Assembly: GCF_003051105.1 (NCBI RefSeq)
Contig: NZ_QAOO01000012.1
Coordinates: 1 to 64,000 of the forward strand
Source of the DNA: Nitrosomonas nitrosa
GTDB lineage: Bacteria > Pseudomonadota > Gammaproteobacteria > Burkholderiales > Nitrosomonadaceae
Reading direction: 5' to 3'
DNA: 64,000 nt
Both the position numbers and the translations under genes were made by a program. Below the pieces are notes generated by a model. The model was not told the DNA's origin. It did not search any database and saw only the letters and a program-made list of their open reading frames with translations. This document shows, piece after piece, positions 8,774 to 30,906 of this stretch. Positions within the stretch are counted from its first letter, which is position 1. Each line of letters starts with the position of its first letter.

Positions 8774-10627
8774 ATGGCTGATCAAGAGGATAGTAAAGGG
8801 GTTAAGCATTGTCTTGATAGACAATCTCCAGATTTACACACGCAGCAGCGCTTGTTGAAATTTATTAATGAAGCGCGCGTCGTCAACGATCTTACAGTAC
8901 TTCCTCATGACGTACCCGTGGTGGATGAGGAACTAGCTCACCTGGGGGATATTCCGCACCATATCGACCCGAAACGGACGCTCGATTTGGCTGATGCGTG
9001 CAAGTTGTTCGAGGCGCGTATCGATCACAACCTCCTGCATGGCTTTACAAATTTTAAGGATCTGGTGGCAATACTGGATCGTCGCATCCTTGACATTCTG
9101 ATTCGTTTGTTCGGCTCTTACCGGTACGGGCGCTGGGATTACCTATACCCCATGACAGCTGGTGGCATGGCATTGTCGATTGAACATGCCGCTTTGTTGC
9201 GTACTGGCAAGGTGTTGTTCATAGAAAGTGGCACTGACACCATTTTGTGGGATCCGACTGACGAAGTGACGCCTCAATTCAGTGTCATAGATGGCGCAAC
9301 TACCGGTTTGACTGCCAATCTATTTTGCTCTGGCCATGTCTTTCTTTCCAACGGCGAACTGCTCGTGGTGGGTGGTGGGGGCGGTGGACCTGGCGCTGCG
9401 AGTTCGATTCAAGGCTGGCGCTATGATCCTATCAGCCAGCAATGGACGCAGACAGGCGATATGACTACGAAACGCTGGTATCCCACTGCATTGATGCTGG
9501 GAGATGAACAGGGACCGACAGGCTTTAGCAACCGCGTGTTGGTTGCAGGCGGAACCGGTGGGACAGGGGGCATGGAGGTCTACTCCGAATCGACAAATTC
9601 ATTCGTGCCAATAACCGTAAATGGCCCGATTACCAAGCACTTCAACCAGACTTATCCAGGCTTGCACTTGTTGCCGGGCGGCGAAGTTTTTTATGCGCCT
9701 ACGGGATTTGCCAATTGCAGTACTGGGAGTGTGGGCGGCTATACAGATGGCCCATCTGCTTGGTTTACATTTGATGCTCAGCAAGGTTCGAACAGCGGTC
9801 ATTGGACTGAAGTATCCAGCGCGCAGATCGATCGTGCTAAAGGGATGTCGGTGTTGCTATTGCAATCCACCTACCCCTTCGTGCGCGTTACTGCAATAGG
9901 AGGCGGCCCGGCTGGCACCAATAGTACGGCGCAAACGATCAATCTTTCCACTCTTTCCCCAAGTTGGGGACCAACCACCACTATTCCTGATGGTCGCCCC
10001 AGAATTAACGTGAATGCGGTGTTGCTGCCCAACTCCACGATATTGGTTTGCGGAGGCTTGCAGAGCAGCCCCTACCCGACATGGATTTATGATCCGAACG
10101 CTGCGGTGAGCGCATGGCGCGAAATGGATGAGAATCATCGCCCGCGGCACTATCATGCATGTGCCCTGCTGCTGCCTAGTGGAAAGGTAATGATGGCTGG
10201 CGGTGCGTCATCCGGGGGGTGCAGTCTCAGCGTTGAAAATTCCATTGAGGTTTTCAGCCCACCTTATCTATTCAATCCTGATGGTACTTTGGCGACCCGC
10301 CCCATTATTGATTCAGTGAATGGAGAGGTACCGACTTCTAGCCATTTTGTCCAGTTCCATCACGGCGATACGTTCACAGTGGAGTCTCCTCAAGCTACGA
10401 GTATCGCCAAAGTGGTTTTGATCCGCCCAATGGCTGTGACACACCAAACGGATAGTGAGCAGCGTGTCATTCAAATGCCTTTTTATACAAGTGGGGCGGC
10501 TCAGTTAACGGTCAGTGCGCCTGACGGCGGTCCGGCGCATGCAATGGCACCGCGCGGTTACTATATGTTGTTCTTGCTCAATACTAGCGGTGTGCCGTCA
10601 GAAGGGAAATTCGTTCATTTGCATTGA
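8774..10627 (+). CDS. Copper radical oxidase, galactose/glyoxal oxidase-like (kelch + DUF1929)
   Basis: A 617-residue protein with a kelch-type beta-propeller followed by a C-terminal galactose-oxidase-like Ig domain (DUF1929). All copper-radical positions can be matched to galactose oxidase: C185 (NLFCSGHVF, the thioether cysteine), Y236 (KRWYPTAL, the radical tyrosine), Y460-H461 (RPRHYHACAL) and H557 (MAVTHQTD). It should therefore be a real copper radical oxidase that oxidises an alcohol or aldehyde and makes hydrogen peroxide. Residues 1-125 are a helical extension with no counterpart I recognise. There is no signal peptide, which is odd for a family normally secreted. ATG 8774 has a good GAGGAG site. 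A multicopper oxidase gene follows 241 bases downstream. Confidence 0.85.
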   Translation: MADQEDSKGVKHCLDRQSPDLHTQQRLLKFINEARVVNDLTVLPHDVPVVDEELAHLGDIPHHIDPKRTLDLADACKLFEARIDHNLLHGFTNFKDLVAILDRRILDILIRLFGSYRYGRWDYLYPMTAGGMALSIEHAALLRTGKVLFIESGTDTILWDPTDEVTPQFSVIDGATTGLTANLFCSGHVFLSNGELLVVGGGGGGPGAASSIQGWRYDPISQQWTQTGDMTTKRWYPTALMLGDEQGPTGFSNRVLVAGGTGGTGGMEVYSESTNSFVPITVNGPITKHFNQTYPGLHLLPGGEVFYAPTGFANCSTGSVGGYTDGPSAWFTFDAQQGSNSGHWTEVSSAQIDRAKGMSVLLLQSTYPFVRVTAIGGGPAGTNSTAQTINLSTLSPSWGPTTTIPDGRPRINVNAVLLPNSTILVCGGLQSSPYPTWIYDPNAAVSAWREMDENHRPRHYHACALLLPSGKVMMAGGASSGGCSLSVENSIEVFSPPYLFNPDGTLATRPIIDSVNGEVPTSSHFVQFHHGDTFTVESPQATSIAKVVLIRPMAVTHQTDSEQRVIQMPFYTSGAAQLTVSAPDGGPAHAMAPRGYYMLFLLNTSGVPSEGKFVHLH

Positions 10628-10868
10628 AAATGAAAATGTCATGATCTCCATCGAGCTTATTTAAGAAGGGGAAATATTGGCGCTTACGTAACGGCATCCT
10701 CGAATGGATGAACACATGCAAGGAGAAAATAGTGCTGCGGTATGAGCAATGAATGGTCAGCGTTATTGTACATCGAGCAGTTCAGACCAAGAGACATCAC
10801 TCATTGGTTTGATTTTGCAAGGTAAAGTATCGCTGTTATAAGATCAACTGCAATCGGAGAACGCCACT

Positions 10869-13800
10869 ATGACAACAGGAATCGGGCCCTATGTGACCCC
10901 AGATGCTGCTGATATCGATACCGATCCATCACCTAATGTATTAGAAATTACCCTCACGATTTCACAGCAAACTGTCGATATTGGCGGTGGGGTGATGGCG
11001 AACGCGGAAACGATCAATGGCACCATTCCCGGGCCAACGCTGAGGTTGAACGTTGGCGATACCGTGATTGTTCGCGTGGTTAACGATCTTCCCCATCCCA
11101 GCGGCATCCATTGGCATGGTATCGAGTTGCATAATAGTGCCGACGGCACACCTGTCACACAAAATGGAATTCCGGTCGGACCCTTCGTGCAGCCTTCGCC
11201 ATTATCGCCGACCGGTGGTACTTACCTGTATAAATTCAAAGTACCTCGTCCAGGTATCTATTGGTACCACCCCCACCATCATCACTCAACCAATAGAGTA
11301 TTCCGGGGTACTTACGGTATGATCATCGTCACCGACCCGAATGAAGCAATGTTGGTTGGGGCGGGTGTGCTGCCTGGTGCTACGGATACCGTTCAGCTGG
11401 TATTGAGTGATACTACCGTATGCAAGGCACCCGGTACCAACGATACGGTGACTTACGATCCTTCCCTTCCTTGGGTAGGTGGTGGACCATTTCCAGGTCA
11501 GCCGGGGCCGACACCAGCAGATTTATGCGAAATTTCTCCAATGAATGAGGATGGCAGTCCAGCAGCAGGGCCTTTTGCCGCCGGAGATATACCCAATATA
11601 CAACGTATGGGTGGCGGCAGAACCAATGAGGGCCAGACCGTGCTCACGAATGGGATGAATGTCGGTGGACGGACTGGAACACCGACGGCCCCCGGTCTCT
11701 TGAACGCTGATGCCATAACATACGATATCCAATCAGGGCAAGGATTGCGACTGCAGCTCGTCAATGCGGCTACTATCCGTTATTTTCGTCTTATCCTGAC
11801 GACGAATGACGGAGTGCAAGTGCCCTTGGTTCGTGTTGGTGGTGAGGGTGGATTGCTCGATCATGCCGTCGTTGAGGGTGGCGTGATCGGCGGCTTTGAT
11901 ACTAAATACACAACCGGTGAAATATTACTGCCAGCAGCGAGCCGGGCCGATGTGGTCGCAGCCATTCCAGCGGGGACTACCGGCGTATTAACGCTGTGGA
12001 CACAGGATTTTGCGCGAACCGGAGCAGGATTTGCCAATCTGCCGACTGTGCCCGTTATGCACTTGAATGTGACTGGTCCGGTGGCAGGGCCTGCTTATGT
12101 GATTAGTGATGGCACGCCTCTGTTATCCACGATTCCTGGCGCATCCCCCATTCCATTGGGAGCGCCGGACGCTGTGCTGCTCGATCCGTCTGGCTTTGCT
12201 CCACCGAAGCCTGGCTTATCCGATCAGGACATAGTGTTGACCAATGTGGGAGGCATGCTGGGGATCAATGGAATTCCCGGAGACCATGAAGACCCGGAAC
12301 CTTATACCTCAAGACCCCACTTTGCTTCTGCACGTTACGCCAAGCTGGGGGATACACTCGAATTGACTGTGACCAATAATACGGGTGCGCACCATCCCTT
12401 TCATCTGCATGGTTTCTCAATTCAACCGATTTCGTATACGCGTCCGGGTTTTCCAACATTGGCCTGGCCTTATACAGAATTCAGAGACAATGTGGATGTG
12501 CCGAGTAATTACACGCTTACCTTCAGAGTAAGGATGGATGATCGCGAACTGGCCGATGGGATTACATTGGGCGGCGGATTGGGTCGCTGGTTATTCCACT
12601 GCCATATTTTCTTCCACGCGCATCAAGGGATGATCAGTGAGTTAGTAACCACGGACGCCGATGGCACTGGAAGCGAAAAACCCAACGTCGATGTAGGGGG
12701 TTCTTGGGCATTCGCGCCTCTTGGCGGAATCGCCACCCGTAAGGGCAAGCATAGTCATCCCGATGGCGACCCTATAGCCCTTTCTGCGAGTATCGGTACA
12801 GTCACCGATACAGGCGGTGGAAATTGGTCATGGGAGTTGGACACCTCCATTGGTCCTGTACCTGCTTCGACCCAATATGTTTATATTACAGGAACAGATC
12901 CTTCCGGGCGGCAGGATCAAGCTGTTTTTCGTTTGAAAATCGGCGCGCCGGATGATGGCTCAGACAACGGCGATCCTCATATTCATACCGTGGAAGGTAT
13001 TCGCTACGATTTTCAAGCGGTAGGTGAATTCATTCTATTGCGCGATCGTGAAGATGGAATAGAGATCCAAGCTCGCCAGACGCCTGTACTTTCAGCAAAT
13101 CCGATTATCGATCCCTACAGTGGACTGAGAGCATGCGTCAGTGTGAACACAGCCATTGCCGCCCGGGTAGGATTGCATCGGATTGCCTACCAACCCGGAC
13201 AGGAAAGGGGGCAGCTTCAATTTTATATCGATGGAAAACCTGCCCGGCTGACAAGAGAGGGCATCGATCTTGATGGTAACCATGTAAGCGGTTTTGATGC
13301 GGACGGCGCTACCGCTTTACGCGTTGATTATGCGAACAGCACGGTACTCATGGTTACGCCACGCTTTTGGAATAGCCATAATATTTGGTATATGAATGTG
13401 AGTATTTCGCATACACAGGCCGACGAAGGCATTATGGGTCGCATTCCAAAATCCAGTTGGCTGCCGAATCTACCCAGCGGCCAGAGTATGGGACCTAGGC
13501 CGAGAAGCCTGCACGATCGTTACGTTGCGCTTTACCAGACATTTGCCAATGCCTGGCGAGTTAACGACGCGAATAGTTTGTTTGTCTATACGCCGGGTAT
13601 GTCAACCGAAACCTTTACAGATAGGGACTGGCCTGCCGAAGAGCCTCCCTGTCAGTTAAAATCGGGATTCGAAATCCCAGGTGCGCCTGTTCCAGTAGGC
13701 GTTGATATCGAACAAGCTGAACAAATTTGCCAAGCTGTGACCGAGGGTGATCTTCACCAGGACTGTGTTTTCGATGTGGCGACACTTGGCGACGAGGAGT

Positions 13801-14243
13801 TTGCCAAGGGTTATTTGTTTGCCCAGGAACTCAGGCTGCGCAGTACTTCCGTGCAAGTTGCGGTCGGTAAAACATGTACCGGACACGCTGATTCTCCCGG
13901 CATTACCGCAACGGTACTGCCGATGAAAAGTCACGGCCCCACTCCCACAGGAAGCATCACGTTTATGGCCGATGGCAATGCAGTTGGATCACCCCTCAGA
14001 CTGGACGAACGGGGGCGAGCATGCCTGCCTTTTAATACTCTCAGCCCGGGCACCTATAAATTTCAGGCGATATATCAAAGTGATGGAGACCCGCATCGTT
14101 ACCATTCCAGCGCGAGCCCAATTCTCACTCACACTGTGGAGAAAGGAATGGATGACCATGGCAAGCGGCGTTTCAAACTTTGGTGGGTGATCGGGATCAT
14201 TTTATTGCTGCTGCTGTTGGTAGTGGCGGTTATTTCAAGATAA
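10869..14243 (+). CDS. Multicopper oxidase fused to vWD and Ig-like domains, C-terminal membrane anchor
   Basis: An 1124-residue protein. Residues 1-600 are a three-domain multicopper oxidase with all four copper motifs: HWHG at 81-84, YHPHHH at 133-138, HPFHLHG at 509-515 and HCH-xxx-H-xxxx-M at 577-588, which supplies the T1 Cys578, His583 and Met588. Residues about 699-870 match a von Willebrand factor type D domain (GDPHIHTVEGIRYDF). Residues about 990-1090 form a bacterial Ig-like (Big_3 type) domain, and 1105-1122 is one hydrophobic helix ending two residues from the C-terminus. No N-terminal signal peptide is visible, so topology is unclear. ATG 10869 follows GGAG. It probably works with the preceding copper radical oxidase; the substrate is unknown. 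Confidence 0.85.
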   Translation: MTTGIGPYVTPDAADIDTDPSPNVLEITLTISQQTVDIGGGVMANAETINGTIPGPTLRLNVGDTVIVRVVNDLPHPSGIHWHGIELHNSADGTPVTQNGIPVGPFVQPSPLSPTGGTYLYKFKVPRPGIYWYHPHHHHSTNRVFRGTYGMIIVTDPNEAMLVGAGVLPGATDTVQLVLSDTTVCKAPGTNDTVTYDPSLPWVGGGPFPGQPGPTPADLCEISPMNEDGSPAAGPFAAGDIPNIQRMGGGRTNEGQTVLTNGMNVGGRTGTPTAPGLLNADAITYDIQSGQGLRLQLVNAATIRYFRLILTTNDGVQVPLVRVGGEGGLLDHAVVEGGVIGGFDTKYTTGEILLPAASRADVVAAIPAGTTGVLTLWTQDFARTGAGFANLPTVPVMHLNVTGPVAGPAYVISDGTPLLSTIPGASPIPLGAPDAVLLDPSGFAPPKPGLSDQDIVLTNVGGMLGINGIPGDHEDPEPYTSRPHFASARYAKLGDTLELTVTNNTGAHHPFHLHGFSIQPISYTRPGFPTLAWPYTEFRDNVDVPSNYTLTFRVRMDDRELADGITLGGGLGRWLFHCHIFFHAHQGMISELVTTDADGTGSEKPNVDVGGSWAFAPLGGIATRKGKHSHPDGDPIALSASIGTVTDTGGGNWSWELDTSIGPVPASTQYVYITGTDPSGRQDQAVFRLKIGAPDDGSDNGDPHIHTVEGIRYDFQAVGEFILLRDREDGIEIQARQTPVLSANPIIDPYSGLRACVSVNTAIAARVGLHRIAYQPGQERGQLQFYIDGKPARLTREGIDLDGNHVSGFDADGATALRVDYANSTVLMVTPRFWNSHNIWYMNVSISHTQADEGIMGRIPKSSWLPNLPSGQSMGPRPRSLHDRYVALYQTFANAWRVNDANSLFVYTPGMSTETFTDRDWPAEEPPCQLKSGFEIPGAPVPVGVDIEQAEQICQAVTEGDLHQDCVFDVATLGDEEFAKGYLFAQELRLRSTSVQVAVGKTCTGHADSPGITATVLPMKSHGPTPTGSITFMADGNAVGSPLRLDERGRACLPFNTLSPGTYKFQAIYQSDGDPHRYHSSASPILTHTVEKGMDDHGKRRFKLWWVIGIILLLLLLVVAVISR

Positions 14244-29112: not shown

Positions 29113-29400
29113 ACTTGGTGGAATGGCAATCGATCCAATAAGTGCCAGAGTAAGCAGACTTTATCGCGAATATCGCTTTTCTGGGAAATAGGATGTTTTG
29201 TACAAATCATCAGTCAATCATGGTTTTATGCCTATTATTAATAGAAGTATAACGCTTTGTGTCAGGGGTTTTGTCCAATTTGCACAGGAAAGGATGAAAT
29301 TTCTATCCAAATTGCAAGCGGTATGAATGTATGCTGTTTTCAGTAAATTCGCTTACTATGGAGACATTAGCGATTATTTGTGAAGGTAATTGAATTCAAT

Positions 29401-30906
29401 ATGTCCAATGCACTTAATCTGATCATATATAGTATTGGCACGATCCTGGGATTGGTGGTCGTCGGCGCGATCGTTGCGTTGTTTATCCGGGATATCACGC
29501 AAAAGCAGCACACGATATTGCGCAATTTCCCGATCATCGGCCGGCTGCGCTATTTTTTTGAGCTTCAAGGAAAATACTTCCGGCAATATCTATTTTCGGG
29601 TGATCGGGCAGAATTACCATTCAATCGAGCCACCCGGGCATGGGTCTATAAGAATGCCAAGAATAAAGGGGGCATCGTCGGCTTTGGCTCAACTTACGAT
29701 TTACGGGAGCCGGGCGCGATCATCTTCGTCAATGCGGCTTTTCCAATTCTGGAAGAAGACCAGTTGCCTACCCCTTCGCTTTATATTGGAGAAGGTTATT
29801 GCCGCTATCCTTACGAAGCACGGTCGATTATCAATATCAGCGGAATGAGCTATGGCGCGATTTCTGCACCGGCTGTGCGGGCGTTGTCGCTGGGTGCAGC
29901 CAAAGCCGGTTGCTGGCTCAATACCGGTGAAGGCGGGTTGGCGCCCTATCATACGGAAGGTGGTTGCGACATCATCATGCAAATCGGTACAGCAAAATAC
30001 GGGGTTCGCGATGAAAACGGTAATTTCTCTCCTGCACGCGCCAAGGAGATTGCTCCACTTGTCAAAGCATTTGAAATCAAGCTTTCGCAAGGGGCGAAAC
30101 CCGGCAAGGGGGGCGTGTTACCGGGTTCCAAAGTGCACGCTGAGATCGCTGCCATTCGGGGTATTCCAGCTTTCCACGATTCAATCAGCCCGAATCGTCA
30201 CCACGATATCGGCAGTATCGATGAATTGCTGGATAAAGTGGCCTACATCCGCGAATTGACCGGTCGTCCCGTAGGCGTCAAAACGGCCATAGGTGGGTGG
30301 CACTTCATAAATGAGCTTTGCGATATCATCCTGCGGCGAGGGCTCGAGTACGCGCCTGATTTTCTGACCATCGATGGTGGAGAGGGAGGGAGCGGTGCTG
30401 CACCGCAAACGCTGGTCGATCACGCAGGATTGCCGATTGCAGAAGCGTTACCGCGAGTCGTGGATGCGCTGATCGAATCTGGCTTGAAGCCACGCATTCG
30501 CGTCATTGCCGCGGGTAAGCTTGTCACTTCGGCACATGGCGCCTGGGCATTATGTGCCGGAGCGGATTTTGTCAATACAGCGCGCGGCTTCATGTTTTCA
30601 TTGGGTTGTATCCAGGCGATGCGCTGTCATCTGAATACCTGCCCGACAGGCGTGACAACACACAATCCTCGCCTGCAGCATGGTTTGGTTGTGGAGGAAA
30701 AATACCTGCGTGTCGCGAACTATGCTATGAATGTCAATAAGGAAATCGGGATGATCGCTCATTCATGCGGTGTCAGGCACGCTCGTGAACTGAGGCGTGA
30801 GCATGTGCGGATCGTGGAAACCGCGGGAAAAAGTGTCGCTTTGAATATGTTGTATCCCTACCCTGAAGTGCGCAAGGGATTTAATGAGAAAATAAACATT
30901 GATTGA
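29401..30906 (+). CDS. FMN-binding glutamate synthase-like protein, membrane-anchored
   Basis: From ATG 29401 the protein has 501 residues. A single N-terminal membrane segment (IIYSIGTILGLVVVGAIVALFI) is followed by the FMN/2-oxoglutarate barrel of glutamate synthase (GltB central domain): GMSYGAISAPAVRALSLGA, TGEGGLAPYH, KPGKGGVLPG and DGGEGGSGAAP. A Cys-x5-Cys-x4-Cys set in GCIQAMRCHLNTCPTGV matches the 3Fe-4S cluster of GltB. The glutaminase domain is absent, so it belongs to the stand-alone family whose reaction is not established. A GTG seven codons upstream (29380) is an alternative start. Confidence 0.82.
   Translation: MSNALNLIIYSIGTILGLVVVGAIVALFIRDITQKQHTILRNFPIIGRLRYFFELQGKYFRQYLFSGDRAELPFNRATRAWVYKNAKNKGGIVGFGSTYDLREPGAIIFVNAAFPILEEDQLPTPSLYIGEGYCRYPYEARSIINISGMSYGAISAPAVRALSLGAAKAGCWLNTGEGGLAPYHTEGGCDIIMQIGTAKYGVRDENGNFSPARAKEIAPLVKAFEIKLSQGAKPGKGGVLPGSKVHAEIAAIRGIPAFHDSISPNRHHDIGSIDELLDKVAYIRELTGRPVGVKTAIGGWHFINELCDIILRRGLEYAPDFLTIDGGEGGSGAAPQTLVDHAGLPIAEALPRVVDALIESGLKPRIRVIAAGKLVTSAHGAWALCAGADFVNTARGFMFSLGCIQAMRCHLNTCPTGVTTHNPRLQHGLVVEEKYLRVANYAMNVNKEIGMIAHSCGVRHARELRREHVRIVETAGKSVALNMLYPYPEVRKGFNEKINID

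Follow-up and report, generated by a model that had tools for sequence, protein, structure and literature searches.

A copper radical oxidase and a multicopper oxidase encoded side by side in Nitrosomonas nitrosa, and bacterial proteins in which the two enzyme classes are fused

In Nitrosomonas nitrosa (assembly GCF_003051105.1), the first 64,000 nucleotides of contig NZ_QAOO01000012.1, here called the window, carry a gene for a copper radical oxidase (CRO) followed on the same strand (+), after an intergenic gap of 241 bp, by a gene for a multicopper oxidase (MCO). The two enzymes are encoded by separate open reading frames (ORFs), so the window genes stand outside a family of proteins, described below, in which an MCO and a CRO form a single polypeptide. 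A promoter/terminator scan placed two terminator-like sites just past the MCO gene (14333 and 14433) and none on the + strand of the intergenic gap, an arrangement that allows a single transcript covering both genes. The features of the two genes are collected in Table 1.

Table 1. Coordinates of the CRO and MCO genes and their features in the window.
Feature	Position	Strand	Description
CRO gene	8774..10627	+	617 residues; galactose oxidase/GlxA/AA5-like; no signal peptide
N-terminal extension of CRO, ~residues 1-119	8774..9130	+	aligns with the extension of the Variovorax relative
Copper-radical site of CRO	9326..10444	+	cross-link pair C185 and Y236; ligands Y460, H461, H557; aligned to GlxA
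Galactose-oxidase-like early set domain of CRO, residues 528-615	10355..10618	+	PF09118 (GO-like_E_set), E=4.3e-19
MCO gene	10869..14243	+	1124 residues; vWD-like and Ig-like tail, C-terminal hydrophobic helix; no signal peptide
Laccase module of MCO, residues 31-596	10959..12656	+	type 1 (T1), T2 and T3 copper ligands present
Divergent vWD-like region of MCO	12957..13418	+	starts GDPHIHT..YDFQ..GEF; extent approximate
Bacterial Ig-like domain of MCO, residues 1008-1090	13890..14138	+	PF16640 (Big_3_5), E=3.2e-11
C-terminal hydrophobic helix of MCO, residues 1098-1123	14160..14237	+	possible tail anchor; shared with the Teredinibacter and Mangrovivirga orthologues

The window CRO also matches the Pfam models Kelch and Glyoxal_oxid_N, and it combines a Kelch propeller with the galactose-oxidase-like early set domain. 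Its closest solved relative is GlxA (4unm, E=2.8e-31), and the NCBIfam GlxA model NF052501 matches at E=9.3e-51, yet with 172.8 of 800 bits, far under the equivalog cut-off. An initial annotation, made from the sequence by itself, had recognised a copper radical oxidase carrying C185, Y236, Y460, H461 and H557; we confirmed the ORF, and all five residues fall in segments aligned with GlxA and are invariant in a 6-row alignment of the clade (A4). Because the single-sequence AlphaFold2 model was unusable (predicted local distance difference test, pLDDT, 31.9), the putative convergence of the copper ligands in three dimensions rests on the GlxA alignment. The predicted activity is oxidation of an alcohol or aldehyde with release of H2O2. 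The N-terminal extension gave no Pfam match in the window CRO; HHH_3 was matched in this region at E=0.059 in a Variovorax relative and at E=0.011 in a Mangrovivirga fusion, both below the cut-off.

The MCO matches Cu-oxidase_3 (1.9e-27) and Cu-oxidase_2 (6.4e-18), and the residues of the HxHG, HPH, HxxHxH and HCHxxxHxxxxM motifs are present in 12 of 12 aligned orthologues, one row having the second His of HPH displaced one column by a gap. Foldseek searches with its AlphaFold2 model (mean pLDDT 64.3; mostly 65-90, with dips, over the MCO part) give Thermus laccase and CotA as matches, with E-values down to 1.9e-33. The laccase fold and the conserved ligands thus bear out the earlier assignment of an MCO with all four motifs. 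The vWD and Ig-like domains annotated in the tail fared differently: the Ig-like domain is well supported (Table 1), and the vWD label is weak, since Pfam VWD reaches 12.2 of 22.9 bits in the window protein (E=0.23, below the cut-off) and E≤0.01 in four of 12 orthologues, the best at 6.1e-5. The vWD-like tail recurs in other contexts: on a long protein reading as a subtilase (L134:5235-10787), in Actinoplanes and Georgenia on the gene immediately upstream of the MCO (L055:6669-9239; L047:6435-9302), and on a Thiothrix plasmid protein with CxxCH motifs (L148:4434-5873). A tail match on a Thiothrix plasmid was also the one record returned by a plasmid search with the MCO at E≤1e-30.

Neither window protein has an N-terminal hydrophobic segment. 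Using the Kyte-Doolittle score of the N-terminus with a cut of 1.9 as the signal call, rather than SignalP, we obtained maxima of 0.88 for the CRO and 0.91 for the MCO, as against 2.2-3.35 for seven signal-bearing MCOs and CROs scored alongside. Five long MCO-vWD orthologues were likewise signal-less (1.06-1.73); the Nitrospira, Chromatiales and Terriglobia orthologues carry an N-terminal signal, and the Mangrovivirga fusion, at 1.82, lies near the cut. Given that both proteins are without a signal peptide, the extracytoplasmic placement put forward in the initial annotation, which had overlooked both this absence and the hydrophobic helix at the C-terminus of the MCO, is unsupported by the sequence. 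That helix is the sole feature that argues for membrane attachment. By standard rules, a C-terminal hydrophobic helix is a tail anchor, and a tail-anchored MCO would face the cytoplasm unless the protein left the cell by unconventional export or was released by lysis. The existence of a subset of bacterial CROs without a signal peptide raises the question of how and where they acquire copper.

Ten genomes encode a single chain of ~980-1160 residues in which a complete MCO is followed by a CRO. Five are in the genus, namely the source genome (on contig C22) and G005, G011, G013 and G026; another is in a different genus of the same family (G780) and one in a different family of the same class (G224). 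The more distant carriers are Actinoplanes (G803), Mangrovivirga (G798) and G1490, from the phylum of an Acidobacteriaceae metagenome-assembled genome (MAG), so that the fusions span four phyla: Pseudomonadota, Actinomycetota, Bacteroidota and Acidobacteriota. All four fusions tested with Pfam matched both halves and, within the MCO part, the plastocyanin family (Copper-bind). Alignment of nine fusions shows no variation in the copper His and Cys of the MCO or in the C, H and M of the plastocyanin-like site, and either Met or Leu at the T1 axial position. Fused genomes numbered 5 of 61 relatives, 2 of 369 in the class survey, 3 of 399 in the order survey, 1 of 246 and 1 of 326 in the phyla of Actinoplanes and Mangrovivirga (the one fused genome being in each case the genome on which the survey was centred) and 1 of 327 in the phylum of the Acidobacteriaceae MAG; these counts are lower bounds from overlapping sets, in the larger of which only the top few candidates per genome were scored. 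MCO-CRO fusions are widespread though rare.

Several neighbours of the fusions were seen in passing. The C22 locus (L127:4650-12513) holds a tyrosinase-vWA protein of 1036 residues and a fusion of ~1121 residues that has no conserved CRO cross-link Cys, with genes read by eye as serine recombinases (L127:2630-3876) a few kb away. A small signal-bearing Kazal-type protein (PF00050, 1e-8; L128:11308-11763) adjoins another fusion, and small genes of similar look flank those of L129 and L130.

To place the window CRO, we built a maximum-likelihood tree of 58 CRO domains, admitting only loci with a match of at least 350 residues. The window CRO pairs with that of Variovorax (support 100/99), and this pair joins five family fusions in a 7-row group (99/99). 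A 60-row tree that takes in acidobacterial CROs keeps the group (98/96; bootstrap support over the two trees 98-99%); it omits twelve hand-picked rows of the 58-row tree (L184, L187, L191, L206, L207, L209, L210 and L214-L218). On either tree, the fusion label requires three changes, below all 500 shuffles, a result to which near-identical family members contribute. The window CRO may have split from a fusion or may never have been fused.

The signal call separates the CROs into two sets with different neighbours. Of 69 CRO loci entered, five were unscored because they offered no single ORF (L224, L299, L301, L315, L320), and twelve of the 64 scored were set aside by hand as ambiguous, owing to cut-off contigs or to high-GC frames with unsure starts. 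Among the signal-less loci, 12 of 13 are fused to an MCO or lie within 8 kb of MCO, tyrosinase or amine-oxidase genes: the ten MCO fusions, the window with its adjacent MCO, and Variovorax with an amine oxidase and a tyrosinase. By contrast, no MCO, tyrosinase, LodA or amine-oxidase match was found within 8 kb of any of the 39 signal-bearing loci, a count that is weaker where contig ends cut the locus (L193, L312, L313) or flanks are short (for example L220, L314, L322), nor near any of the twelve ambiguous ones. The idea that all CROs are MCO-linked is accordingly rejected. When the family fusions are counted as one, the contrast is 8 of 9 signal-less against 0 of 39 signal-bearing loci; some loci have short flanks, and related loci cannot be treated as independent. 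Several of the CRO surveys used the fusion profile, which the CRO half alone is enough to match.

Adjacency of the two genes is not conserved. A scan for the MCO over one genome per species (84,980 species) with six exact peptide patterns, which being exact may have passed over further orthologues, yielded at least 247 confirmed relatives; of the best 80 of the 247, which were retained, 11 are close (L047-L057; 48-65% identity over the MCO part). They come from Georgenia (2), Actinoplanes, Acidobacteriaceae, Mangrovivirga, Teredinibacter, Nitrospira (3), Terriglobia and Chromatiales; in alignment A3, L056 was trimmed to its MCO part. In 61 relatives of the source genome, the MCO tail was matched in 3 genomes and CROs in 18, the source genome counting in both, and the best CRO outside the source genome is 41% identical to the window CRO. 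The closest full-length CRO relative (39% identity over 98% of the query) is encoded on a plasmid of Variovorax sp. WDL1. Its neighbours there include a tyrosinase-FG-GAP gene (Pfam 3.2e-22) and a copper-amine-oxidase-like gene (Pfam 1.2e-13); the latter, which is signal-less, is located between the tyrosinase and the CRO (L146:6974-8563). Two CRO fragments at contig ends, too short for the tree, are locally more similar (L139, 53% over 158 residues, 459-616; L179, 47% over 260 residues, 357-616). A scan of viral contigs for CRO relatives gave 8 pattern matches and no confirmed one. Another genome of the genus has a CRO gene broken by an in-frame stop, a decayed copy (L132:750-2308).

The pair is an accessory and probably acquired feature. 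In several relatives, nadC directly adjoins the counterpart of the gene at window positions 29380-30906, and the stretch 8564-29380 as a whole therefore looks inserted or rearranged.

Tyrosinases recur around the fused enzymes. Five fusions (L127, L128, L129, L130, L195) have a tyrosinase match at a distance of 1.7-3.5 kb, and no such match was found in the scanned flanks of the other five. Across 37 genomes of the genus, a tyrosinase is present in 4 of 4 with a Cys-containing fusion and in 16 of the remaining 33; restricted to tyrosinases of ~500 residues, a kind picked out by eye, the figures are 4 of 4 against 7 of 33 (p=0.005). On contig C16 of the source genome (L231:5399-8698), a tyrosinase is accompanied by two accessory genes that resemble those of the L128 cluster, the fusion being absent. 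After the Acidobacteriaceae orthologue of the window MCO (L049) come a LodA gene (Pfam LodA_N, 5.3e-74) and a gene read as LodB-like. Four genomes of the genus contain operons read by eye as MCO, tyrosinase, LodA, small gene and LodB (L232-L235), with the tyrosinases identified by Pfam. Campillo-Brocal et al. 2015 (PMC4417212) describe operons of LodA group ID that also contain tyrosinase and MCO genes, and they propose a functional relationship; the term 'galactose oxidase' is absent from the paper's main text. The window contig had no tyrosinase match anywhere along it. The window pair is best seen as a further combination from this tyrosinase/MCO/LodA oxidase set.

Since CROs and MCOs are fused in one protein in both related and distant bacteria, we suggest that the two work as a unit, and we give roughly an even chance to the reading that the window genes represent, in two-gene form, a mobile, signal-less bacterial MCO-CRO unit, elsewhere a single polypeptide, whose enzymes act jointly. 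The CRO would oxidise an aldehyde or primary alcohol with O2, releasing H2O2, and the MCO would take single electrons from phenols, a metal ion or the CRO and reduce O2 to water. Both enzymes most likely act on the same material, cross-linking or modifying a phenol-, amine- or aldehyde-bearing polymer, which would be met at the cell surface or freed after lysis. The MCO might also provide the one-electron oxidant that keeps the CRO in its Cu(II)-radical state, either directly or through a phenol or Mn mediator. According to PMC10928124, CROs lapse into a reduced form without activity, from which Mn(III), horseradish peroxidase with ABTS (2,2'-azino-bis(3-ethylbenzothiazoline-6-sulfonic acid)), or lignin peroxidase with veratryl alcohol can restore them; an adjacent or fused MCO, as a natural O2-driven one-electron oxidant, could likewise keep a CRO active. 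A narrower version, in which the MCO is a dedicated redox partner re-oxidising the CRO to Cu(II)-radical, O2 alone drives both enzymes without a peroxidase, and the plastocyanin-like copper domain carries the electron in the fusions, we regard as unlikely. Parallel action on phenols and aldehydes that cross-links a polymer would fit the tyrosinase neighbours equally well. Overall, the initial annotation's proposal of one extracytoplasmic or envelope oxidation unit is partly supported: the ten fusions and the CRO clade favour the joint unit, and the proposed location is not supported as stated, neither protein having an N-terminal signal.

Several observations weigh against joint action of the window genes. 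The exact two-gene pair was found solely in the window. Conserved adjacency of the two families, which the initial annotation had proposed as a check, did not emerge: a CRO was found in the flanks of none of the 11 MCO-orthologue loci (up to 8 kb each side, several shorter), so simple conservation of the adjacency is rejected, and the pair is missing from G011 and G018, the closest relatives as judged by nadC identity, where nadC is flanked by other genes. No MCO was found near the Variovorax CRO in the 9 kb scanned on each side, and for the signal-less CRO of a Nostoc plasmid (L147) the 5 kb scanned on each side gave no partner gene. Nor is the window pair merely a fusion that came apart, for the window MCO and the MCO of the family fusions are of different types (28-31% local identity). 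Some CRO halves cannot form the usual radical, since the cross-link Cys is not conserved in two fusions (C22 and Mangrovivirga). At the locus, the width of the intergenic gap makes co-transcription uncertain, and the promoter/terminator scan of the region counted 6 promoter-like sites (fewer than the shuffle mean of 8.2) and 12 mostly intragenic terminator-like sites (more than the shuffle mean of 5.7).

The empty flanks of the MCO orthologues and of the Variovorax CRO, together with the variable nadC neighbourhood and the patchy distribution of both families among the relatives, would also be expected if the window genes were accidental neighbours, two accessory copper oxidases with separate roles in a variable region beside nadC. 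We consider this a tentative possibility, on the unlikely side, because the window CRO groups with fused CROs and the same two enzyme classes form fusions in ten genomes. Moreover, an MCO-CRO fusion occurs elsewhere in 2 of 11 MCO-orthologue genomes and in 2 of 1264 other survey genomes (p=0.0004). This comparison is a rough one: the samples are non-independent, the searches used different queries and cut-offs, and the two groups share at least one genome, the Chromatiales MAG (apparently G274, of the same class as the source genome).

A doubtful alternative is that the H2O2 itself matters, the CRO making it as a weapon or biofilm signal in the manner of LodA/marinocine, with the MCO and tyrosinase partners secondary. 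No immunity or export gene was recognised near the pair among the window ORFs, which were judged by reading only, and an MCO has no need of peroxide, as MCOs reduce O2 to water. In favour of this alternative, LodA-like oxidases share such neighbourhoods, and LodA group IA comprises antimicrobial, H2O2-making enzymes according to PMC4417212. Metal handling, by a CueO- or Mn-oxidase-like MCO acting on Cu(I) or Mn(II) and a CRO using the resulting Cu(II) or Mn(III), is improbable: the top NCBIfam match of the window MCO is to copper-resistance MCOs (TIGR01480, 6.2e-31) and the Terriglobia orthologue adjoins a gene read by eye as CopC/CopD-like, but the CopA and CueO models score 107.5 of 478.95 and 69.4 of 525 bits, far under their cut-offs, and include neither the vWD/Ig tail nor the C-terminal helix.

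The components of the joint MCO-CRO unit are known, and for their combination we found no description: searches of the open-licence literature (PMC10928124, PMC4417212, PMC2855505, PMC11267884 and PMC3543389 included) showed no MCO-CRO fusion or pair, in line with the initial annotation. The unit would add CROs to the tyrosinase/MCO/LodA oxidase group that recurs in bacterial operons, and it bears on two open questions, how the CRO radical is maintained in nature and what bacterial CROs do. The fusions offer a ready-made test: one protein with two active sites between which electron transfer can be measured.

Among known systems, LodA group ID operons (LodA, small protein, LodB, tyrosinase and MCO; PMC4417212) are likewise MCO-containing clusters of copper or quinone oxidases, and the window resembles them in that its L049 MCO orthologue stands beside LodA and that similar operons, read by eye, occur in the genus. 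Unlike those operons, the window shows no match to LodA, to a tyrosinase or to an amine oxidase at 8 kb or less from its CRO (lodB was judged by ORF reading only) and is not of group ID. With CotA spore-coat laccase and Thermus laccase, the window MCO shares the three-domain fold, but it has in addition a ~500-residue vWD-like/Ig-like tail and the C-terminal hydrophobic helix. CotA, too, functions without a signal peptide. The window CRO belongs by sequence to the fold family of Streptomyces GlxA and the galactose/glyoxal oxidases (AA5 CROs) and has all five copper-radical residues, but unlike GlxA, which bears a signal peptide and has a link to cslA (PMC3543389), it is signal-less, carries an extra N-terminal region and neighbours an MCO. 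A functional parallel may be the coupling of fungal glyoxal oxidase to a peroxidase, in which a CRO needs a partner one-electron oxidant to remain active (PMC10928124); in the window, an O2-using MCO would take the place of the peroxidase.

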